A DNA stretch of 64,000 nucleotides. It comes from Epsilonproteobacteria bacterium tcs-49 (GTDB lineage Bacteria > Campylobacterota > Campylobacteria > Campylobacterales > Sulfurovaceae). Shown here one piece after another: positions 50,415 through 59,265 of this stretch. Each line of letters opens with the position of its first letter. Position 1 is the stretch's first letter. The position numbers and the translations under genes are program-made. The stretch covers positions 62,001 to 126,000 of the forward strand of contig LLYS01000006.1 of NCBI GenBank assembly GCA_002049495.1. The letters run 5' to 3'. The notes under the pieces were generated by a model. It saw nothing but the letters and a program-made list of their open reading frames with translations, was not told the DNA's origin and ran no database searches.

Positions 50415-52670
50415 ATGTTACGATTTTTTATTGCGGGGGTGCTGTTATCGGGTGTTCTCGCGGCCGAAGAGGAGACACGACAAAAGGACGTGCGAGACGG
50501 TGTGCGTATCGTCGTAGCCGCTTTTGAACGCAAAACGGATGCGATCAAAGCCGTCGATAGGCTGGATAAGCGCTTGAAAAGCTCCGCCGGGGAAGGTGTT
50601 GTGGTCAAACTGGAACAGGGAAAGCGCAAGCGACTGCTTGTGGAGAATATTCCTTCAAAAGAGGCGGCATCCCGACTTCTGGAGGAGATAAAAGCCGTTT
50701 ATGACAGTGCCTATATAGCCAAACTGCCCCGCAGAACCCCTTTGACTTTGCGTATTCCCGTGGAGAAGGAGTTTGATGAAACCATCGGCCACAAAGAGAT
50801 TTTGCAGGCGCAGTCGCGACAGTACGTCGATACCGTAGCGTTCAAACCCGATTACTCCCTTTGGGATATGGCAGTGGATGTCGTGACCAAAGACCCTGAT
50901 GTGGAGTATCGCCGCTACGAGTACCAGGCTACCGCGGAAGATATCACTATGGCGCAGGCGGAGTTTCGCCCCACCCTTGATGTCCGCGGGGAGATCGGGC
51001 GTTATAACAATGAAACAGACACGACCAAGGAGATATACACCGGTCGGGAAGCCAGCGTTGTTTTGCGCCAAAACCTCTTTAACGGTTTTGGCAGCCAAGC
51101 CCGGGAAGCGCGCGAAATAGCCCGGGCAAAAGCAGCGTTTTACAAATATAAAGAGGTGGCCCAGGATAAGCTTTACCGGGCGATCGAAGCCTATGTGACT
51201 TTGCTGAAATACAGCGAAGTACTCGAAATTGCCAAAAATAACGTTATCGTGCATGAACAGACCCTGCAAAAGATCCAAAACAAGTATGAAGAGGGCTTTA
51301 GTACCCTCAGTCAGGTAGAGCGGGTAAAAGGAAGGCTTGCGCTGGCAAAATCAAACTATATCTCCGAAACCAATAACTATTATGATGCCAAATACAACCT
51401 GCACCGTGCCATCGGCAAACTGGTCGATGCCAAAGATATCACCCTCCCCCGCTTTGACGCAAAGCTGCCGGATACACTGGATGCGGCGATGAAAACGGCT
51501 ATGGAGAACAACCCCTCCGTTGTCGTTGCCCGCTACAATATCCGCTCCGCAAGACAGGCCCATAAATATGCGCAAAAGGAGTTTTACCCTACCCTGGACG
51601 TGGAAGCGGCACAAAGCTGGTATGACAACCGTGACGGTATTACCGGAGACGAAAGAGAATCAAGTGTGCGCTTGATTATGGAGTGGAACCTTTATAACGG
51701 CAATGCCGATGAAGCGGCAAAGCATAAAGAGATGAACAATATTTTAAAAGAGCAGCACCTGAAAAACGCCCTCAAGCGTGAAACCCTCGAGGGGCTGGAG
51801 CTTTCCTGGTCCGCGTATAAGCTTGTTGCAAAGCAGCTGGAGGAGCAAAAACGCTACCGGGATTTGACCGAGCGAACCCTACTGGCGTATGAAGAGGAGT
51901 TTGAACTGGGCAGACGCACCCTGCTGGATCTGTTGGATGCGCAGGATGAGTTGAACAATATCAAGATTCAGGTGTTGTACTCCCGTTACAATCTGCTTTT
52001 TGCCAAATATCGGGTCTTGGACGCTATGGGCTTGCTGCTTGAACACTTCGGTATCAATTTTGAGCAAAACTATATCCGTGAACCCTACCCCGAAACCGAA
52101 CCCGACTACGATCTGGATACCCGGCGAAACTCTATGGATCAGTGTGATAATGCGGATTACCTGCAGGGGGGAGAAAACGGCTGCGCGACGGACAACAGGG
52201 TCACCCTCGTCGAGGTAGAGTATGAATCGGTAACAACCGAAGAGAACAAACTCAGTGCTCAGGAAGTCGAAACGCTCTGGGGTGCGGACGTTCCCCCTGA
52301 AAGTACGCCTGAACAAACGGTCGGGGAAGTGTATGAGTTCCAGCTGCACTTTGCCCTGGATTCCGCACAGCTCAACGCGCAGGCATACAGGGATATCCAA
52401 GCCTTTTACGAGCACCTTCAAAATAGCGGTAATATCTATAAAAAGATCGAAATTGCCGGACATACCGATTATCTGGGCAACGCTTCGTACAACCAAAAGC
52501 TTTCCCAGCGGCGTGCCAAAGCCGTTTACGACCGGCTTATAGAGCTGGGCGCAGACCCCGAGCTTCTAGAGTACAGGGGGTACGGCGAAGCCAAACCCGT
52601 CGCGGATAACGCTACCCCCGACGGGCGGGCAAAAAACCGGCGCATCGAAGCGGTGCTGTATAAACGATAG
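50415..52670 (+). CDS. SPOR-TolC-OmpA fusion, type I secretion outer-membrane protein
   Basis: A 751-residue outer-membrane protein. A signal peptide (1-17) is followed by a SPOR-like domain (about 28-100: VRIVVAAFERKTDAIKAVDR, then KRLLVENIPSKEAASRLLEE). The two TolC/OEP repeats follow (about 150-560; typical AIEAYVTLLKYSEVLEIA and ALKRETLEGLELSWSAYK), then an acidic linker. The C-terminal OmpA peptidoglycan-binding domain (about 635-751) contains IEIAGHTDYLGNASYNQKLS and RRAKAVYDRL. It would form the outer-membrane channel that exports and holds the giant adhesin at 59352, anchored to the cell wall by the OmpA part. TolC-OmpA fusions occur with such systems; the added SPOR-like part is less usual. 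Confidence 0.88.
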   Translation: MLRFFIAGVLLSGVLAAEEETRQKDVRDGVRIVVAAFERKTDAIKAVDRLDKRLKSSAGEGVVVKLEQGKRKRLLVENIPSKEAASRLLEEIKAVYDSAYIAKLPRRTPLTLRIPVEKEFDETIGHKEILQAQSRQYVDTVAFKPDYSLWDMAVDVVTKDPDVEYRRYEYQATAEDITMAQAEFRPTLDVRGEIGRYNNETDTTKEIYTGREASVVLRQNLFNGFGSQAREAREIARAKAAFYKYKEVAQDKLYRAIEAYVTLLKYSEVLEIAKNNVIVHEQTLQKIQNKYEEGFSTLSQVERVKGRLALAKSNYISETNNYYDAKYNLHRAIGKLVDAKDITLPRFDAKLPDTLDAAMKTAMENNPSVVVARYNIRSARQAHKYAQKEFYPTLDVEAAQSWYDNRDGITGDERESSVRLIMEWNLYNGNADEAAKHKEMNNILKEQHLKNALKRETLEGLELSWSAYKLVAKQLEEQKRYRDLTERTLLAYEEEFELGRRTLLDLLDAQDELNNIKIQVLYSRYNLLFAKYRVLDAMGLLLEHFGINFEQNYIREPYPETEPDYDLDTRRNSMDQCDNADYLQGGENGCATDNRVTLVEVEYESVTTEENKLSAQEVETLWGADVPPESTPEQTVGEVYEFQLHFALDSAQLNAQAYRDIQAFYEHLQNSGNIYKKIEIAGHTDYLGNASYNQKLSQRRAKAVYDRLIELGADPELLEYRGYGEAKPVADNATPDGRAKNRRIEAVLYKR

Positions 52671-52723: not shown

Positions 52724-53341
52724 ATGAGACGGGTTGTATTTATAGCGGCTGTTTTGATTGTCAGCGCCCTTGCACAGGAGTTGTACAACCAGCAGCTGCT
52801 ACAAAAGATCGACAAGAAGTACGGGCAGTATGCAAAAAAACGCTTCGAGCTGCTGATAGAAACGATGGAGGGGTTGCGGGACAAGCCCGAAATGCAAAAA
52901 CTGCAAAAGATCAATGCGTTTTTCAACGAATCGCAGTACGAGACGGATAAAAAGATTTATAAACAGAAAGATTACTGGGCTACGCCTTTTGAGTTTTTGG
53001 GCAACGACAAAGGTGACAGCGAAGATTTTGTTTTTGCTAAATACTTTACCCTCAAAGAGTTGGGAGTCAACCCCCGAAAACTTTTTTTTACCTACGTCAA
53101 ATCCAAAAAGTTAAAAGCGGCGTATATGGTACTGGTGTATTACAAAAGCAAAAAATCGATGCCCTATATTTTGGACTCACTGAATTTTAAAGTGCTTCCG
53201 GCAAACAAGCGGGCGGATCTGGTACCGGTATACAGTTTTAACGCCGCTTCCATAGACAAAGGCGGCAAAAGTGCCGGAGCGGCGCAGCAGAGTTTGAAAT
53301 TCAAAACATTATTACAAGCAGTGAAGAAGGAGAGATTATGA
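52724..53341 (+). CDS. lapG: LapG-like transglutaminase-type protease homologue, catalytic Cys and His replaced
   Basis: A 205-residue periplasmic protein of the BTLCP/LapG family, with a signal peptide (1-17). LapG normally cuts LapA-type adhesins from the cell surface. The fold motifs are clear: KDYWATPFEFLG, GDSEDFVFAKYFTLKELG, FFTYVKS, AAYMVLVYY, ILDSL and ADLVPVYSFN. In active LapG these read GDCEDY, AHMVL and LDNL. Here the Cys is Ser99 (AGC, 53018-53020) and the His is Tyr134 (TAT, 53123-53125); only Asp151 of the triad remains. The acidic calcium ligands next to residue 99 are kept. The protein should fold and bind its partners but not cleave. It overlaps lapD by 4 bases. Confidence 0.9.
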   Translation: MRRVVFIAAVLIVSALAQELYNQQLLQKIDKKYGQYAKKRFELLIETMEGLRDKPEMQKLQKINAFFNESQYETDKKIYKQKDYWATPFEFLGNDKGDSEDFVFAKYFTLKELGVNPRKLFFTYVKSKKLKAAYMVLVYYKSKKSMPYILDSLNFKVLPANKRADLVPVYSFNAASIDKGGKSAGAAQQSLKFKTLLQAVKKERL

Positions 53342-55257
53342 GCTTATACAAACAGATTGCGGGGATGATGACCCTGTTTATCGTTATCGTTATGGGATCG
53401 GTATTGTGGGTGAACTTCAGCTCAAGCAAGGAGTTCATACAAAAGCAGCTGTTCAACAACTCCATCGATACGGCCAACTCCCTGGGGTTGACCATACAAA
53501 ATTCCGGGACCATCGAGGATACGGCGACGATCGACGCCATGATCTCGGCGGTTTTTGACAACGGTTTTTATGATAAAATCCTGCTTGTCGATACCGATAA
53601 CAACCCCATCGTCAGTAAAAGTCTCGATGAAGCGAAAACCAAAGCCCCCCGCTGGTTCGTCGAACTTGTGGATATCTCGTTCCTTCCCGCCAAGGCCGAA
53701 ATCATGAACGGCTGGAGTATGTACGGCAAGCTCTACGTGCGTAGCGACAAAACCCACGCATACGACAAGATGTGGGAAAGTTTCCTTTCTCTGCTCAAAC
53801 TCTTCTCCCTTATCACCGCGGTTTTACTGGTGACGCTGTACCTGTTTTTGCGTTTTCTGCTCCGTCCTCTGGCACAGTTGAATAAACAAGCCCGGGCCGT
53901 AGACAACAATGAGTTTATGATCGTTGAAAGCACGCCTTCGACCACCGAGTTTAAAAACGTGGTCAACTCCATGAACAAGGTGGTGCGAAAGCTTGAAACG
54001 ATCTTTAACAAAGAGGCACAAACCCTGCGGAAATATCATGAGTTACTCTATAAAGATCCCGATACGAAGTTGGGAAACCGCAACTACTTCAATATGCAGC
54101 TAAAATCCTTTATCCGTTCCCGGGGGGAACTCTCCATAGGGACGGTATGGATGATGGAGTTTGACCATTACGATCTCTTGAAAAAGAATGTAGGATTCCA
54201 AAAGGTTTCGACTCTCGTAGAAAGCCTTGTCGAAACCGTTGAACAGATATTTAAGGATTACGATGACAGGTTGCTGTGCAGAATCAACAGCGGTACCTTT
54301 ATGCTGATTCTTCCCGGCAGTGATCTTGAAGCGTTGGAAGACAGTGCCGAAAAACTTTATACGGACTTTCAGAAAAAAGCCCTTGAAATCGGTGTGGGAA
54401 AAGAAAACGGTATGCACTTTGCCGTAGCCCTTACCCCCTACTCGCACAACAGTACCATCCGCGATATTTTGACAAAGAGCGACTTCGCCCTGGCCCACGC
54501 CCATAACCAAACTCAGATAAAAATCTATGCCAACCAGGAGGAGTCCCGCCGAAAGCCGTTGACGAAGGAGGAGTGGGTACAGACTCTGGAAAATACCTTT
54601 GAACACGATACGTTGCAGTTACAGCCAAATCCCGTTACGGAGCTTGACGGGTCGGTACATATGCAGGAGTTTACCCCCGTCGTCATCGGCCTTGAAGGTG
54701 AAGAGCACATCCCCGGAGAGTACAGACCCGTTATCAAAAGTCTGGGCTGGATCAAGCGTTTCCAACAGTACCTGATCCGAAAGCTTTTAGACCGCAGCGA
54801 TGCGGGCAGCTCCATCGTGGCTTTAAATGCGGAGTTACTGGAGGATCGCGGCTTTATCAAATGGATTAAAGAAACCCTGCCCCGCCATCCGGACAAGCGG
54901 CTGTATTTTGAGTTTTCCGCCCAGGCCGCCAGCCTCAATGCCGTCCATATCAAAGATTTTAACAATCTGCTTTTAGATACGGTACACGGCATCGGTTTGG
55001 ACGGGTTTTCCCTAGAAAGCAGTGACCTGGAGTATCTCAAACAGATCCAACCCTCCTATATCAAGATTGAGCGGGATTATCTTCTGGGCGAGCAGGAGGG
55101 ATCGGAACTTACGGTAAATACCCTGCGCAATATCACCTCCAGTATCGGAACGCGGATAATCGTGAAAAATATTTGCGACGGCGGGGATCTGGAGCGGTTA
55201 AAAGAGTTTGGAATAACCCTCTATCAAAGCGGTACCAACGAGCAATGTCGCATTTAA
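53338..55257 (+). CDS. lapD: LapD-like c-di-GMP receptor (HAMP-GGDEF-EAL, degenerate)
   Basis: A 639-residue inner-membrane receptor. TM1 (about 6-26), a periplasmic LapD_MoxY-type domain with AEIMNGWSMYGKLYV, TM2 (about 150-175), HAMP, and degenerate GGDEF (RINSGTF) and EAL domains. The EAL signature and the DDFGTG motif are absent (LDGFSLESSDLEYL), as expected of a c-di-GMP binding protein rather than an enzyme. Trp126 in NGWSM corresponds to the Trp125 that LapD uses to hold LapG. At high c-di-GMP LapD sequesters LapG; here its partner looks inactive. The end overlaps the ABC exporter gene. Confidence 0.9.
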   Translation: MSLYKQIAGMMTLFIVIVMGSVLWVNFSSSKEFIQKQLFNNSIDTANSLGLTIQNSGTIEDTATIDAMISAVFDNGFYDKILLVDTDNNPIVSKSLDEAKTKAPRWFVELVDISFLPAKAEIMNGWSMYGKLYVRSDKTHAYDKMWESFLSLLKLFSLITAVLLVTLYLFLRFLLRPLAQLNKQARAVDNNEFMIVESTPSTTEFKNVVNSMNKVVRKLETIFNKEAQTLRKYHELLYKDPDTKLGNRNYFNMQLKSFIRSRGELSIGTVWMMEFDHYDLLKKNVGFQKVSTLVESLVETVEQIFKDYDDRLLCRINSGTFMLILPGSDLEALEDSAEKLYTDFQKKALEIGVGKENGMHFAVALTPYSHNSTIRDILTKSDFALAHAHNQTQIKIYANQEESRRKPLTKEEWVQTLENTFEHDTLQLQPNPVTELDGSVHMQEFTPVVIGLEGEEHIPGEYRPVIKSLGWIKRFQQYLIRKLLDRSDAGSSIVALNAELLEDRGFIKWIKETLPRHPDKRLYFEFSAQAASLNAVHIKDFNNLLLDTVHGIGLDGFSLESSDLEYLKQIQPSYIKIERDYLLGEQEGSELTVNTLRNITSSIGTRIIVKNICDGGDLERLKEFGITLYQSGTNEQCRI

Positions 55258-57386
55258 CGCTTTCGGATTCTTTGCTTGAGTCCCTGCTTCTGTTTGCCAA
55301 GCTTTACCATAAACCGGTAAGCAAGCAGGCACTTTTGGACGGTTTGCCGGTGCAGCAGCGCTCCGGCGTGGATCTGCTGTCCGTTTCACAGGGGGAAACC
55401 CTGTTTGAATATATAGCGCGAAAAGCGGGCTTTAAATCCAAACTGTATGAAAAAGGGTTTCAAAAATTAAACGCTTTGCACCTACCCTGTATCCTGATCC
55501 TTCAAGACGGGAACAGCTGCATCCTCGAAGAGCTCGACCCCCAAAAGCAAGAAGCCAAAATCATTTTGCCCGAACTTCCCGATACGCAGGAACTCGTTAC
55601 CTATGATAAGCTTGAAAAACTTTACTCGGGCAAACTTTTTTTGCTGAAAAAAAGCTACCGCTTCAAAGGGGTGCATTCGGAGCTGCTGAAGGAGCGGTTC
55701 GACCACTGGTTGTGGGATACTTTGAAAAAAAACAGATCGATCTACAAAGATGTCGTTCTTACTTCCATCTTGATCAACCTGTTTGTTTTGGCCAGTCCGC
55801 TGTTTGTAATGAACGTCTATGACAGGGTCGTTCCCAATTTTGCCGTGGAGTCTTTGTGGGCACTGAGTATCGGCGTAGTGATTATTTTCGTCCTCGATGC
55901 GGTGTTGAAATTTCTGCGCACCTACTTTCTGGAAACCGCCGCGAAAAAAACGGATGTGATCATCTCCTCGAGTCTGTTTGAAAAGATCATGGGAACGAAA
56001 CTTTCGCACAGGCCCGGATCGGTGGGTTCTTTCGCCCACACGATCAAAGATTTCGACCTGATCAAAAACTTTTTATCCGCTTCGACGGTAGCTGTTTTGG
56101 TGGATCTTCCCTTTGTCGTGATCTTTTTAAGCGTCATCACTTATCTTAGCGGAGTGGTGGTTTTGATTCCGCTGGCGGTGATCGCCGCCGTTATAACCTT
56201 TGCCCTGATCATAAAAAAACCGCTGCACGGCAGTATCGAAGAGGCTAATGAATCCATAGCGCAAAAAAACGGTATTTTGATCGAAAGTTTAAACGCCCTT
56301 GAAACGATCAAGAGTCTCGGAGTTTCGGGGCATGCCCGCTGGAAATGGGAGGAAGCTACCGGAGATATCGCGCATAAAGGCTTAAAAACAAAGATGCTCT
56401 CCGCTTCCGTAACCAGTTTTACTTCCTTTATGATGCAGCTGAATACGGTTTTGATTATCATCGTAGGCGTATATCAAATCCATGACGCCAAATTAAGCTT
56501 GGGGGGATTGATCGCTGCGGTGATCCTCTCATCCAGAGCGATCGCTCCCATGGGACAGCTCGCTTCGCTGATCTCCTCCTTTGAACAGACAAAGCACGCC
56601 TTTTCCATGCTGGACAACATCTTTGATCTGCCCGACGAGCGGCCGCCCCAAAAGGATTTGATCCATAAGAACGATTTTAGCGGAGCCCTGGAGTGCAAGG
56701 ATCTGCATTTTTCCTATGATGAGGAGAAAACGATTTTAAACGGAGTCTCTCTATCGGTACGACCCGGTGAGAAGATAGCGATTTTGGGCAAGATGGGCTC
56801 GGGAAAATCTACGCTGTTGAAACTGATCATGAAGCTTTTTGAAGCTCCCAAGGGGGAGCTGCTGCTTGATGGGGTGGATATCAAACAGATCGAACCCGCC
56901 GACATACGTACTAATATTTCCTACATCTCCCAGGAAGCGATGCTGTTTAACGGCACCTTGAAAGAAAACATCCTTTACAAATCCCCCTATGCCGGTGACA
57001 AAGCACTTATCAACGCCCTGCGGGTTTCACAGCTGCTTGATTTCGTCAACTCGCACCCCAAGGGGATGGATATGGTTATCGGCGAACGGGGAGATACCCT
57101 TTCGGGAGGACAGCGTAAAGCGGTCTCTATCGCCCGCTCCTTGGTGGGAGATTTTTCTTTGCTGCTTATGGATGAACCTACGGATAATATGGATATACAG
57201 ACCGAAAACGCTTTAAAGCGGCAGCTTGGAAGTTTGCTTGAGGACAAAACCCTGCTGCTGGTAACCCATAAAACCTCCATGCTCGATCTGGTAGATCGCG
57301 TTATCGTTATGGACCGCGGGCGTATCGTTCTGGATGGTCCCAAGCGGGAAGTACTGGAAAAGCTGGGAGGCGGCGATGGCAGATAA
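55245..57386 (+). CDS. Type I secretion ABC exporter, LapB/LssB-like
   Basis: A 713-residue exporter. The N-terminal 130 residues are a C39-like domain (SLLLFAKLYHKPVSKQALLD) with no catalytic Cys-His pair, as in adhesin exporters. The membrane domain (about 150-440) follows, then the ATPase with Walker A LGKMGSGKSTLLK near residue 513, signature LSGGQRKAVSIARSL, Walker B LLLMDEPTDNMD and H-loop LVTHKT. I choose the ATG at 55245, inside the end of lapD, because the family starts there. It pairs with the HlyD protein that follows and the TolC fusion upstream. Confidence 0.93.
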   Translation: MSHLTLSDSLLESLLLFAKLYHKPVSKQALLDGLPVQQRSGVDLLSVSQGETLFEYIARKAGFKSKLYEKGFQKLNALHLPCILILQDGNSCILEELDPQKQEAKIILPELPDTQELVTYDKLEKLYSGKLFLLKKSYRFKGVHSELLKERFDHWLWDTLKKNRSIYKDVVLTSILINLFVLASPLFVMNVYDRVVPNFAVESLWALSIGVVIIFVLDAVLKFLRTYFLETAAKKTDVIISSSLFEKIMGTKLSHRPGSVGSFAHTIKDFDLIKNFLSASTVAVLVDLPFVVIFLSVITYLSGVVVLIPLAVIAAVITFALIIKKPLHGSIEEANESIAQKNGILIESLNALETIKSLGVSGHARWKWEEATGDIAHKGLKTKMLSASVTSFTSFMMQLNTVLIIIVGVYQIHDAKLSLGGLIAAVILSSRAIAPMGQLASLISSFEQTKHAFSMLDNIFDLPDERPPQKDLIHKNDFSGALECKDLHFSYDEEKTILNGVSLSVRPGEKIAILGKMGSGKSTLLKLIMKLFEAPKGELLLDGVDIKQIEPADIRTNISYISQEAMLFNGTLKENILYKSPYAGDKALINALRVSQLLDFVNSHPKGMDMVIGERGDTLSGGQRKAVSIARSLVGDFSLLLMDEPTDNMDIQTENALKRQLGSLLEDKTLLLVTHKTSMLDLVDRVIVMDRGRIVLDGPKREVLEKLGGGDGR

Positions 57387-58689
57387 AAAAGAGTTTGAAA
57401 TGTTCAGCTCCCTGGCCCAGGCGCATCTGGAACAGCTTCCTGCAAAAAGCCGTTTGTTTCTCTACTCGCTGCTTGTTCTGACGCTGCTTTTCCTGCTTTG
57501 GGCCTCTTTTGCTACGGTGGAGCAGCTGCTTCGGGGTACGGGCAAAGTGGTCGCTTCGGGGCAGAACAAGGTGGTGCAAAATCTCGAAGGGGGGATCGTC
57601 TCAAGTATCCTTGTCAAAGAGGGGCAGCGGGTGCACAAAGGCGAAACGATCCTGCAGATACGCAACCAGCAGTTTGTCAGCGAACTGGAAAAAAACAATT
57701 TGCAAATTTATGAGCTGATGGCAAAAAAACGTCGGCTGCAAGCGGAGTCTTCGGGCAAGACGTTTACCTATACCCCAACGGCCAATACCCTGCTGAACGG
57801 TTTTTTGCAAAAAGAATATGAACTCCACCGAAGCAACCGGAACAATCAGGAGAATAAAAAGCGTATCTTACAGGAGAAACTGACCCAGCGTAAAGAGGAA
57901 AAATCGGAACTGTATTCGCGCATCAACAACCTGCAGATCAAATATGACCTTATCCTTGAGGAGATGAACGCTATGCGACCGCTGGTGCAAAAGGGATTGA
58001 TCTCCAAGATGGAAGCGCTGAAGCTCAAACGGGAAGTGACGACTTTTAAAGATGAGCTTGAATCGGCAAAACTGCGTCTGCCGATTCTTGAGTCTTCTAT
58101 CAAAGAGGCACGGCAGAATCTGCAGGATCTGCACAACGAGTTTGAAACCAAAGCCAGGGAGGAGTATGTCAAAATCAGCGGAGAACTGGACCGTTTGAAA
58201 AAGAGCAATGCCGCCTATAGCGACCAGGTCAGCCGTACCAAGGTCACGGCTCCCGTCGGCGGCACCGTCAAGCAGCTTTTTGTCAACACCATCGGCGGTG
58301 TTATCAAACCGGGAATGGATCTGGTTGAAATCGTACCCGATAACAGTGAATTGATCGTCGAAGCCAAGATTAAACCCGCCGATATCGCCTTTATCCACCC
58401 GGGACAAAAGGCGACGATCAAACTGACGGCGTACGATTTTTCCATCTACGGGGCGCTCAAGGGAGAGGTGGAAACGATTTTGCCCGATGCGATCACCGAT
58501 AAAAAAGATGAAGTATATTATCTGGTATATATCAAAACGGATGATACGGCCCAACTGCAAGACAGAAAACTCAAGATCATCCCGGGAATGGTTGCCAACG
58601 TGGATATCATCAGCGGGGAGCGGACCATCATGGAGTATCTGCTCAAACCGATCGTTAAAACCAGATACTACTCTTTTACGGAGCGATAA
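57376..58689 (+). CDS. HlyD-family membrane fusion protein (LapC-like)
   Basis: A 437-residue periplasmic adaptor. One TM helix (about 30-50), a lipoyl-like segment (VVASGQNKVVQNLEGGIVSS), a long coiled coil (about 95-270), the second lipoyl half (VTAPVGGTVKQLFVNTIGGV) and a beta-barrel with C-terminal IIPGMVANVDIISGERTIM, typical of the HlyD/PrtE type. GGGAGG lies 6 bases before the ATG at 57376; the gene overlaps the exporter gene by 11 bases. It bridges the ABC exporter to the TolC-OmpA channel. Confidence 0.94.
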   Translation: MADKKEFEMFSSLAQAHLEQLPAKSRLFLYSLLVLTLLFLLWASFATVEQLLRGTGKVVASGQNKVVQNLEGGIVSSILVKEGQRVHKGETILQIRNQQFVSELEKNNLQIYELMAKKRRLQAESSGKTFTYTPTANTLLNGFLQKEYELHRSNRNNQENKKRILQEKLTQRKEEKSELYSRINNLQIKYDLILEEMNAMRPLVQKGLISKMEALKLKREVTTFKDELESAKLRLPILESSIKEARQNLQDLHNEFETKAREEYVKISGELDRLKKSNAAYSDQVSRTKVTAPVGGTVKQLFVNTIGGVIKPGMDLVEIVPDNSELIVEAKIKPADIAFIHPGQKATIKLTAYDFSIYGALKGEVETILPDAITDKKDEVYYLVYIKTDDTAQLQDRKLKIIPGMVANVDIISGERTIMEYLLKPIVKTRYYSFTER

Positions 58690-59265
58690 ATGGGACTCTA
58701 TCTCGCTACGCTGGACCCCGTACTTATCAAGCGCTGGAGGGATATCCTTCACGGCTATAACCCTTGCGTTCTTTATAAAGAGGAGGAGTTAAAAAGCCTC
58801 GGTGCCGATACGGGGATGGTGATCCTGTCCATAGATGATTATCCCGATTATACCGCCCGCTTTCAGCGCTGTATCGTATTGTGCAGCGAACCGAGGCTAC
58901 GCGAAGGTAAGCGTCTGCTCGCCGCCGGAGTCAAAGCGTACGGCAACGCGTACCTCTCTTCGGAAAACTTGAAATCAGCGGTGGAAACGGTCCGATCGGG
59001 CAATATTTGGATCTATCCGGATTTGATGCACTACCTTATCGGGGGGATCGGCGAGACCGTCGAGGTTGAAGACGGTGCGGTACAAAAGCTTTCAAAAAAG
59101 CAGCTGGAGGTGGCTAGGCTGTTGAGCCGAGGGCTTGGCAACAGGGAGATAGCCCGGCAGATGGGTATCACCGAGCGAACGGTTAAATCACATCTGACCT
59201 CTATCTATGAAAAAACCGGGACGAGAGATCGTGTTTCGCTGGCTTTGCTGATGAAAAGGTTTTAA
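58690..59265 (+). CDS. LuxR-family regulator with degenerate receiver domain
   Basis: A 191-residue protein. Residues 1-115 follow a receiver-like pattern (GMVILSIDDYPDYTARF, then GVKAYGNAYLSSENLKSAV), without the full set of acidic phosphorylation residues. The C-terminal LuxR helix-turn-helix is clear (LSKKQLEVARLLSRGLGNRE, then MGITERTVKSHLTSIYEK). The ATG directly follows the HlyD stop with GGAG 6 bases upstream. It probably controls the adhesin gene that begins 86 bases further on, independently of phosphorylation. This kind of regulator often accompanies surface adhesins. Confidence 0.87.
   Translation: MGLYLATLDPVLIKRWRDILHGYNPCVLYKEEELKSLGADTGMVILSIDDYPDYTARFQRCIVLCSEPRLREGKRLLAAGVKAYGNAYLSSENLKSAVETVRSGNIWIYPDLMHYLIGGIGETVEVEDGAVQKLSKKQLEVARLLSRGLGNREIARQMGITERTVKSHLTSIYEKTGTRDRVSLALLMKRF

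Follow-up and report, generated by a model that had tools for sequence, protein, structure and literature searches.

Replacement of both the catalytic cysteine and histidine in a conserved LapG homologue of a Lap-type adhesin operon

Introduction

The Lap system is the standard model for the control of biofilm release by c-di-GMP. Proteolysis is regarded as its output and is carried out by LapG, which normally cuts a giant adhesin off the cell surface. Cleavage takes place between the alanines of the motif [T/A/P]AAG, downstream of a docking helix (PMC13090378), and the binding of LapG is, independently of cutting, one of the two inputs that switch the receptor LapD (PMC5231407). The LapD interface of P. 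fluorescens LapG has been shown to include A169, Y176, V205 and Y206 (PMC4359373). The catalytic residues were addressed in HvyA, a BTLCP protein from Caulobacter, whose C192S variant is stably made yet does not complement, while H226Y was obtained from a screen for loss of function (PMC4241560). The C317A variant of DvhG is inactive as well (PMC13090378).

DvhG and DvhD of Desulfovibrio vulgaris form a variant Lap system, in which the retention domain contacts the protease (PMC13090378). A catalytically incomplete peptidase fold is also found within type I secretion itself, namely, in the C39-peptidase-like domain of HlyB-type ABC transporters, which is thought to bind the substrate.

The window analysed here is a stretch of 64,000 nucleotides from Epsilonproteobacteria bacterium tcs-49 (Sulfurovaceae; contig LLYS01000006.1, positions 62,001 to 126,000). 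It encodes a LapG homologue that resembles LapG of P. fluorescens and Legionella in its fold, its calcium ligands, its LapD-contact residues, its signal peptide and its operon with LapD and type I secretion. Unlike in these enzymes, the catalytic Cys and His are replaced and the linked adhesin is devoid of [T/A/P]AAG. The locus shares with the LapD-LapG switch a receptor built of LapD_MoxY_N, GGDEF and EAL domains, the docking residue Trp126 and the adjoining position of lapG and lapD; it differs in the equivalent of R450, which is Val, and in its output, which judged from the sequence cannot be LapG proteolysis. DvhG, in contrast, has an intact triad and cuts, and DvhD is an HD-GYP receptor. 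The C39-peptidase-like domain belongs to an unrelated family and is a cytoplasmic part of a transporter, while the LapG homologue is periplasmic. A full-text search of the open-licence literature yielded no description of a natural LapG pseudoprotease.

Results

The LapG homologue, in the following called Ser/Tyr-LapG after its residues at the two replaced positions, was found among the following genes:

50415..52670, + strand, TolC-type outer-membrane channel with a fused OmpA domain, in the role of LapE (PF02321, PF00691)
52724..53341, + strand, Ser/Tyr-LapG, very probably a LapG pseudoprotease, 205 aa (PF06035, NCBIfam LapG, alignment to 120 LapGs, codons, AF2 model)
53338..55257, + strand, LapD-type receptor with LapD_MoxY_N, GGDEF and EAL (Pfam, NCBIfam LapD 2e-91, alignments to 3pjw and 4u64, LapD column counts)
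55173..57386, + strand, type I secretion ABC transporter, in the role of LapB (PF00005, PF00664); the true start probably lies downstream of the listed TTG
57334..58689, + strand, HlyD-type membrane fusion protein, in the role of LapC (PF13437)
58690..59265, + strand, LuxR-type regulator (PF00196), at the same position in the Ser/Tyr-LapG operons L188, L190, L223 and L225
59352..63998, + strand, giant retention-module adhesin that continues past the window end (NF033682 retention_LapA 1.3e-5, head comparison)

The start of lapD overlaps the stop of the Ser/Tyr-LapG gene by 4 bases. The OmpA domain is located C-terminally on the TolC-type channel (50415-52670); in the Arcobacteraceae operons described below, a separate OmpA-like gene adjoins the adhesin.

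Ser/Tyr-LapG is a LapG of the BTLCP family by descent, with homology in both sequence and fold. It matched PF06035 with 7e-12 and 45.8 bits against a Pfam cut-off of 27. The match to NCBIfam CystProtLapG (NF045674) had an E-value of 2e-47, but with 161 bits it is under the cut-off of 320. The protein has a signal peptide and is secreted. Its AF2 model (pLDDT 92) had P. fluorescens LapG (4u65_E) as top PDB match in Foldseek with a TM of 0.75-0.85, the best matches being LapG structures; the model rests on 42 sequences, and AF2 is nearly blind to two point changes.

The original prediction placed Ser99 and Tyr134 at the positions of the nucleophile and the base, with Asp151 kept. This was borne out by the codons (AGC for Ser99, TAT for Tyr134 and GAC for Asp151) and by an alignment with the solved LapGs 4fgo and 4u65 as well as 120 other LapGs, in which residues 99, 134 and 151 fall into the columns of the catalytic Cys, His and Asp. 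These columns hold Cys in 118, His in all 120 and Asp in 117 of the 120 other sequences, and the Cys-His-Asp triad is incomplete in Ser/Tyr-LapG (S99, Y134, D151). Among 35 near-invariant columns, each conserved in at least 93% of the sequences, it differs at five, namely C99S, I104F, H134Y, N152S and W193F, which include both catalytic residues. The fold and the calcium ligands had likewise been predicted to be retained, and in agreement with this most of the near-invariant columns are unchanged and D98 and E100, flanking the nucleophile position, are kept. Since Cys and His changes like those that inactivate HvyA and DvhG are both present, it is very unlikely that Ser/Tyr-LapG is a working protease.

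The pattern GDSED[YF] was searched in 397 genomes of the class. The stretch GDSEDFVFAKY, identical to that of the window, was detected in two genomes of another family and two more copies came from a search of that family, which is taken to be Arcobacteraceae as its LapGs cluster with named Arcobacter loci. A single-protein scan of the genome contigs returned no relatives. The four Arcobacteraceae copies are:

L188, 16678-17310
L190, 3415-4041
L223, 3622-4254
L225, 3475-4095

In all four, Ser stands in the Cys column and Tyr in the His column, Ile104 and Trp193 are both replaced by Phe, and the Asp is kept; Ser99, Tyr134 and Asp151 are thereby conserved in five out of five copies. GDSEDFVFAKYF and SYMVL are identical between the window protein and the four others, and the 14-residue active-site stretch is identical across the two families. 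The gene order TolC-LapG-LapD-ABC-HlyD-LuxR is common to all five operons. In a tree calculated without the five changed columns, the five proteins form one clade (bootstrap 99, SH-aLRT 90), and the Ser/Tyr replacement is thus shared by common descent. As both replacements are carried by four other genomes, a sequencing or assembly error is ruled out and the change is not a private mutation of the window genome.

The adhesin of the window operon has 2906 aa in full and is the sole retention-module head found in the window genome. Its head contains no [T/A/P]AAG, and EDTLAAAANAGQ stands at the expected place. In the heads from the Arcobacteraceae operons the sequence is ETNLVVENNND or one near it. 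Altogether, [T/A/P]AAG occurs in none of the five adhesins of Ser/Tyr-LapG operons versus 22 of 31 other retention-module heads, and in about 10 of 11 heads near an intact LapG versus none of four near Ser/Tyr-LapG, in tallies counted by hand on heads that come from two lineages and lack phylogenetic independence. The remaining nine of the 31 other heads are devoid of the motif as well, and its loss is not unique to Ser/Tyr-LapG operons. The window head has AAAANAG, which is near a di-alanine site and leaves room for cleavage by a lax protease. From the sequence evidence on protein and adhesin together we infer that Ser/Tyr-LapG cannot cut the adhesin and that the adhesin would not be released by LapG proteolysis.

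Apart from the cut site, the retention module of the Arcobacteraceae heads L233, L235, L234 and L246 appears to begin with a duplicated beta unit. G024 and G451 encode adhesin heads (L175, L160, L163) in which several retention-like units occur in tandem and the LapG cut motif is absent; the LapG of these genomes is intact but divergent.

Ser/Tyr-LapG could in principle have gained a new catalytic activity with Ser99 as nucleophile, for which the conservation of Ser99, Tyr134 and Asp151 in all five copies might speak. However, the His was not replaced by another base, HvyA loses its function upon the corresponding changes to Ser and Tyr (PMC4241560) and the linked adhesins have lost the cut site. 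A new activity is therefore regarded as extremely improbable.

A second LapG was sought in the window genome, which comprises 2.22 Mb in 17 contigs and is 99.9% complete, with PF06035 and a 42-sequence profile at E ≤ 5. Neither search returned one, and Ser/Tyr-LapG is the sole LapG detected in this genome. Control of the adhesin by another LapG encoded elsewhere, as initially suggested, is thus not supported here, and the same applies to the suggested role as a decoy. As a decoy on LapD or on the adhesin, Ser/Tyr-LapG would either protect the adhesin from an active LapG encoded elsewhere or free that enzyme. This is unlikely in the window genome because it contains no active LapG to compete with; moreover, the operon's own adhesin has no cut motif and needs no protection. 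A decoy may apply to the Arcobacteraceae, where all four genomes with Ser/Tyr-LapG also encode GDCED-type LapGs at other loci, and the independent Cys-to-Ser LapGs L091 and L096 are found in genomes with an intact LapG, too. As an explanation of the Ser/Tyr form as a whole, the decoy is considered unlikely.

The window LapD showed a LapD_MoxY_N domain (PF16448, 2e-34) in addition to GGDEF and EAL. It had been described as an intact partner that keeps its docking Trp126, and for the periplasmic dock this proved correct, Trp126 being kept and Trp being present in 78 of 78 other LapDs. On the side of Ser/Tyr-LapG, A133, Y140, V169 and Y170 are all identical to the corresponding residues A169, Y176, V205 and Y206 of P. 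fluorescens LapG. Concerning c-di-GMP binding, the receptor is not clearly intact: the EAL Arg equivalent to R450 of P. fluorescens LapD, which lies centrally in the c-di-GMP site, is Val, and control by c-di-GMP may have been lost with this Arg. It is likewise missing in 45 of the 78 other LapDs and was kept in the two Arcobacteraceae LapDs that were checked (G353, G618). Its loss was considered as a sign of parallel decay and this was dropped, as the loss is common in LapDs beside intact LapGs. Since LapG binding is in itself an input to LapD, a non-cutting LapG could still signal.

Many Sulfurimonas LapDs beside intact LapGs (e.g. L060, L074 and L079) have neither the R450-equivalent Arg nor the first Glu of EAL; going by these residues, their binding of c-di-GMP is doubtful.

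The LapD contacts bear on a further explanation, according to which Ser/Tyr-LapG would be a chaperone for the secretion of the retention module or its loading into the TolC-type channel, with LapD as a minor partner, comparable to the C39-like domain of type I ABC transporters and its binding of substrate without cleavage. The location in an operon with a whole type I system would suit this role, and a precedent is given by type I ABC transporters with a peptidase-like domain that has no catalytic His (PMC6959600). In addition, the Arcobacteraceae adhesins share a conserved putative docking helix, but their scissile residues are not conserved. For a pure secretion chaperone, however, the retained LapD-contact residues and Trp126 would be superfluous, and this role is judged as rather unlikely.

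Selection on Ser/Tyr-LapG was assessed among the four Arcobacteraceae copies, which gave dN/dS values of 0.07-0.15 at dS of 0.6-1.4. A decaying or private mutation is thereby ruled out for the Arcobacteraceae. Between the window and these copies synonymous sites are saturated, so the ratio covers the Arcobacteraceae copies alone and none is given for the window branch. Protein identities between the window and the Arcobacteraceae amount to 52-53% for Ser/Tyr-LapG and 32-33% for LapD. Intact operons were compared in 1830 pairs, and a LapD identity of 0.30-0.36 went with a LapG identity of 0.46 ± 0.04. Measured against LapD, the conservation of Ser/Tyr-LapG is thus at the high end of the range for intact pairs. 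As its identity of 52-53% compares with approx. 46% in intact pairs at equal LapD identity, Ser/Tyr-LapG is not decaying faster, and its rate of evolution does not exceed that of active LapG. These values place Ser/Tyr-LapG under purifying selection, for the window lineage on the basis of the Arcobacteraceae copies and of sequence conservation.

These data are difficult to reconcile with a functionless leftover of a switch to constitutive retention that is being lost. That both catalytic residues and the cut site are lost and that the EAL of the window LapD is degenerate would be expected of such a remnant. Against it stand the low dN/dS in the Arcobacteraceae, the same replaced residues and the identical active-site stretch in two families, the high conservation relative to LapD and the intact reading frame with its overlap with lapD. 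A leftover is hence deemed quite unlikely.

Discussion

Taken together, Ser/Tyr-LapG is with high confidence a conserved LapG pseudoprotease. How it acts is a matter of lesser certainty. We infer that it works by binding, and there is about an even chance that it is a pseudoprotease in a variant Lap system without proteolytic release which acts by binding in the periplasm. The original prediction had proposed that a dead LapG could serve as a scaffold and make the retention of the adhesin constitutive. This part agrees with the conserved Ser/Tyr form, the purifying selection, the retained LapD-binding residues and the adhesins without cleavage motif.

As a possible mechanism, Ser/Tyr-LapG would dock on LapD via the old Trp pocket and contact the retention segment of the adhesin via its old substrate groove, and would in this way link the anchored adhesin to LapD in the periplasm. 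An adaptor between retention segment and LapD is favoured over a secretion chaperone, although its own probability reaches an even one at best. More specifically, Ser/Tyr-LapG might connect the anchored adhesin to LapD as an adaptor that does not cut, with permanent retention and with a LapG-LapD pair that senses or mechanically supports the adhesin; this is put forward tentatively, as a proposal somewhat short of even odds. It might clamp or chaperone the retention module without cutting it, or be a periplasmic ligand through which LapD reports the status of the adhesin.

A selected non-cutting LapG beside adhesins without the usual cut site would uncouple what LapG does by binding from what it does as a protease. 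The Ser/Tyr-LapG system would predict adhesion to surfaces that is not followed by the usual release.

Cys-to-Ser LapGs that retain the His are encoded at L091:764-1381 and L096:9980-10597, each with its own LapD, and both genomes also encode an intact LapG. TAAG is replaced by TEAG in the adhesin head adjoining L091. Another Cys-to-Ser LapG (L181:1204-1884, G422) lies in tandem beside an intact LapG, and a similar tandem pair is found in G593 (C1:765952). The G422 copy has lost the conserved R163/D165 region and sits on a long branch; it may be decaying. A single origin of all Cys-to-Ser LapGs was rejected, as L091 and L096 cluster with the intact L075, and the copy of G422 with intact Arcobacteraceae LapGs. 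According to this grouping, Cys-to-Ser LapGs retaining the His had at least two further independent origins.

Within the window's own family, two proteins of approx. 530 aa (L044:268-1860 and L045:1417-2949) have a C-terminal BTLCP-like domain with GDNEDF or GDREDF and no His, which by its sequence represents a second type of degenerate BTLCP domain. In Pseudoalteromonas (L110 and L114 and the second copies L140 and L141), Gly occupies the triad Asp column, giving LGN rather than LDN, and the genomes concerned also encode a second LapG that bears the Asp.
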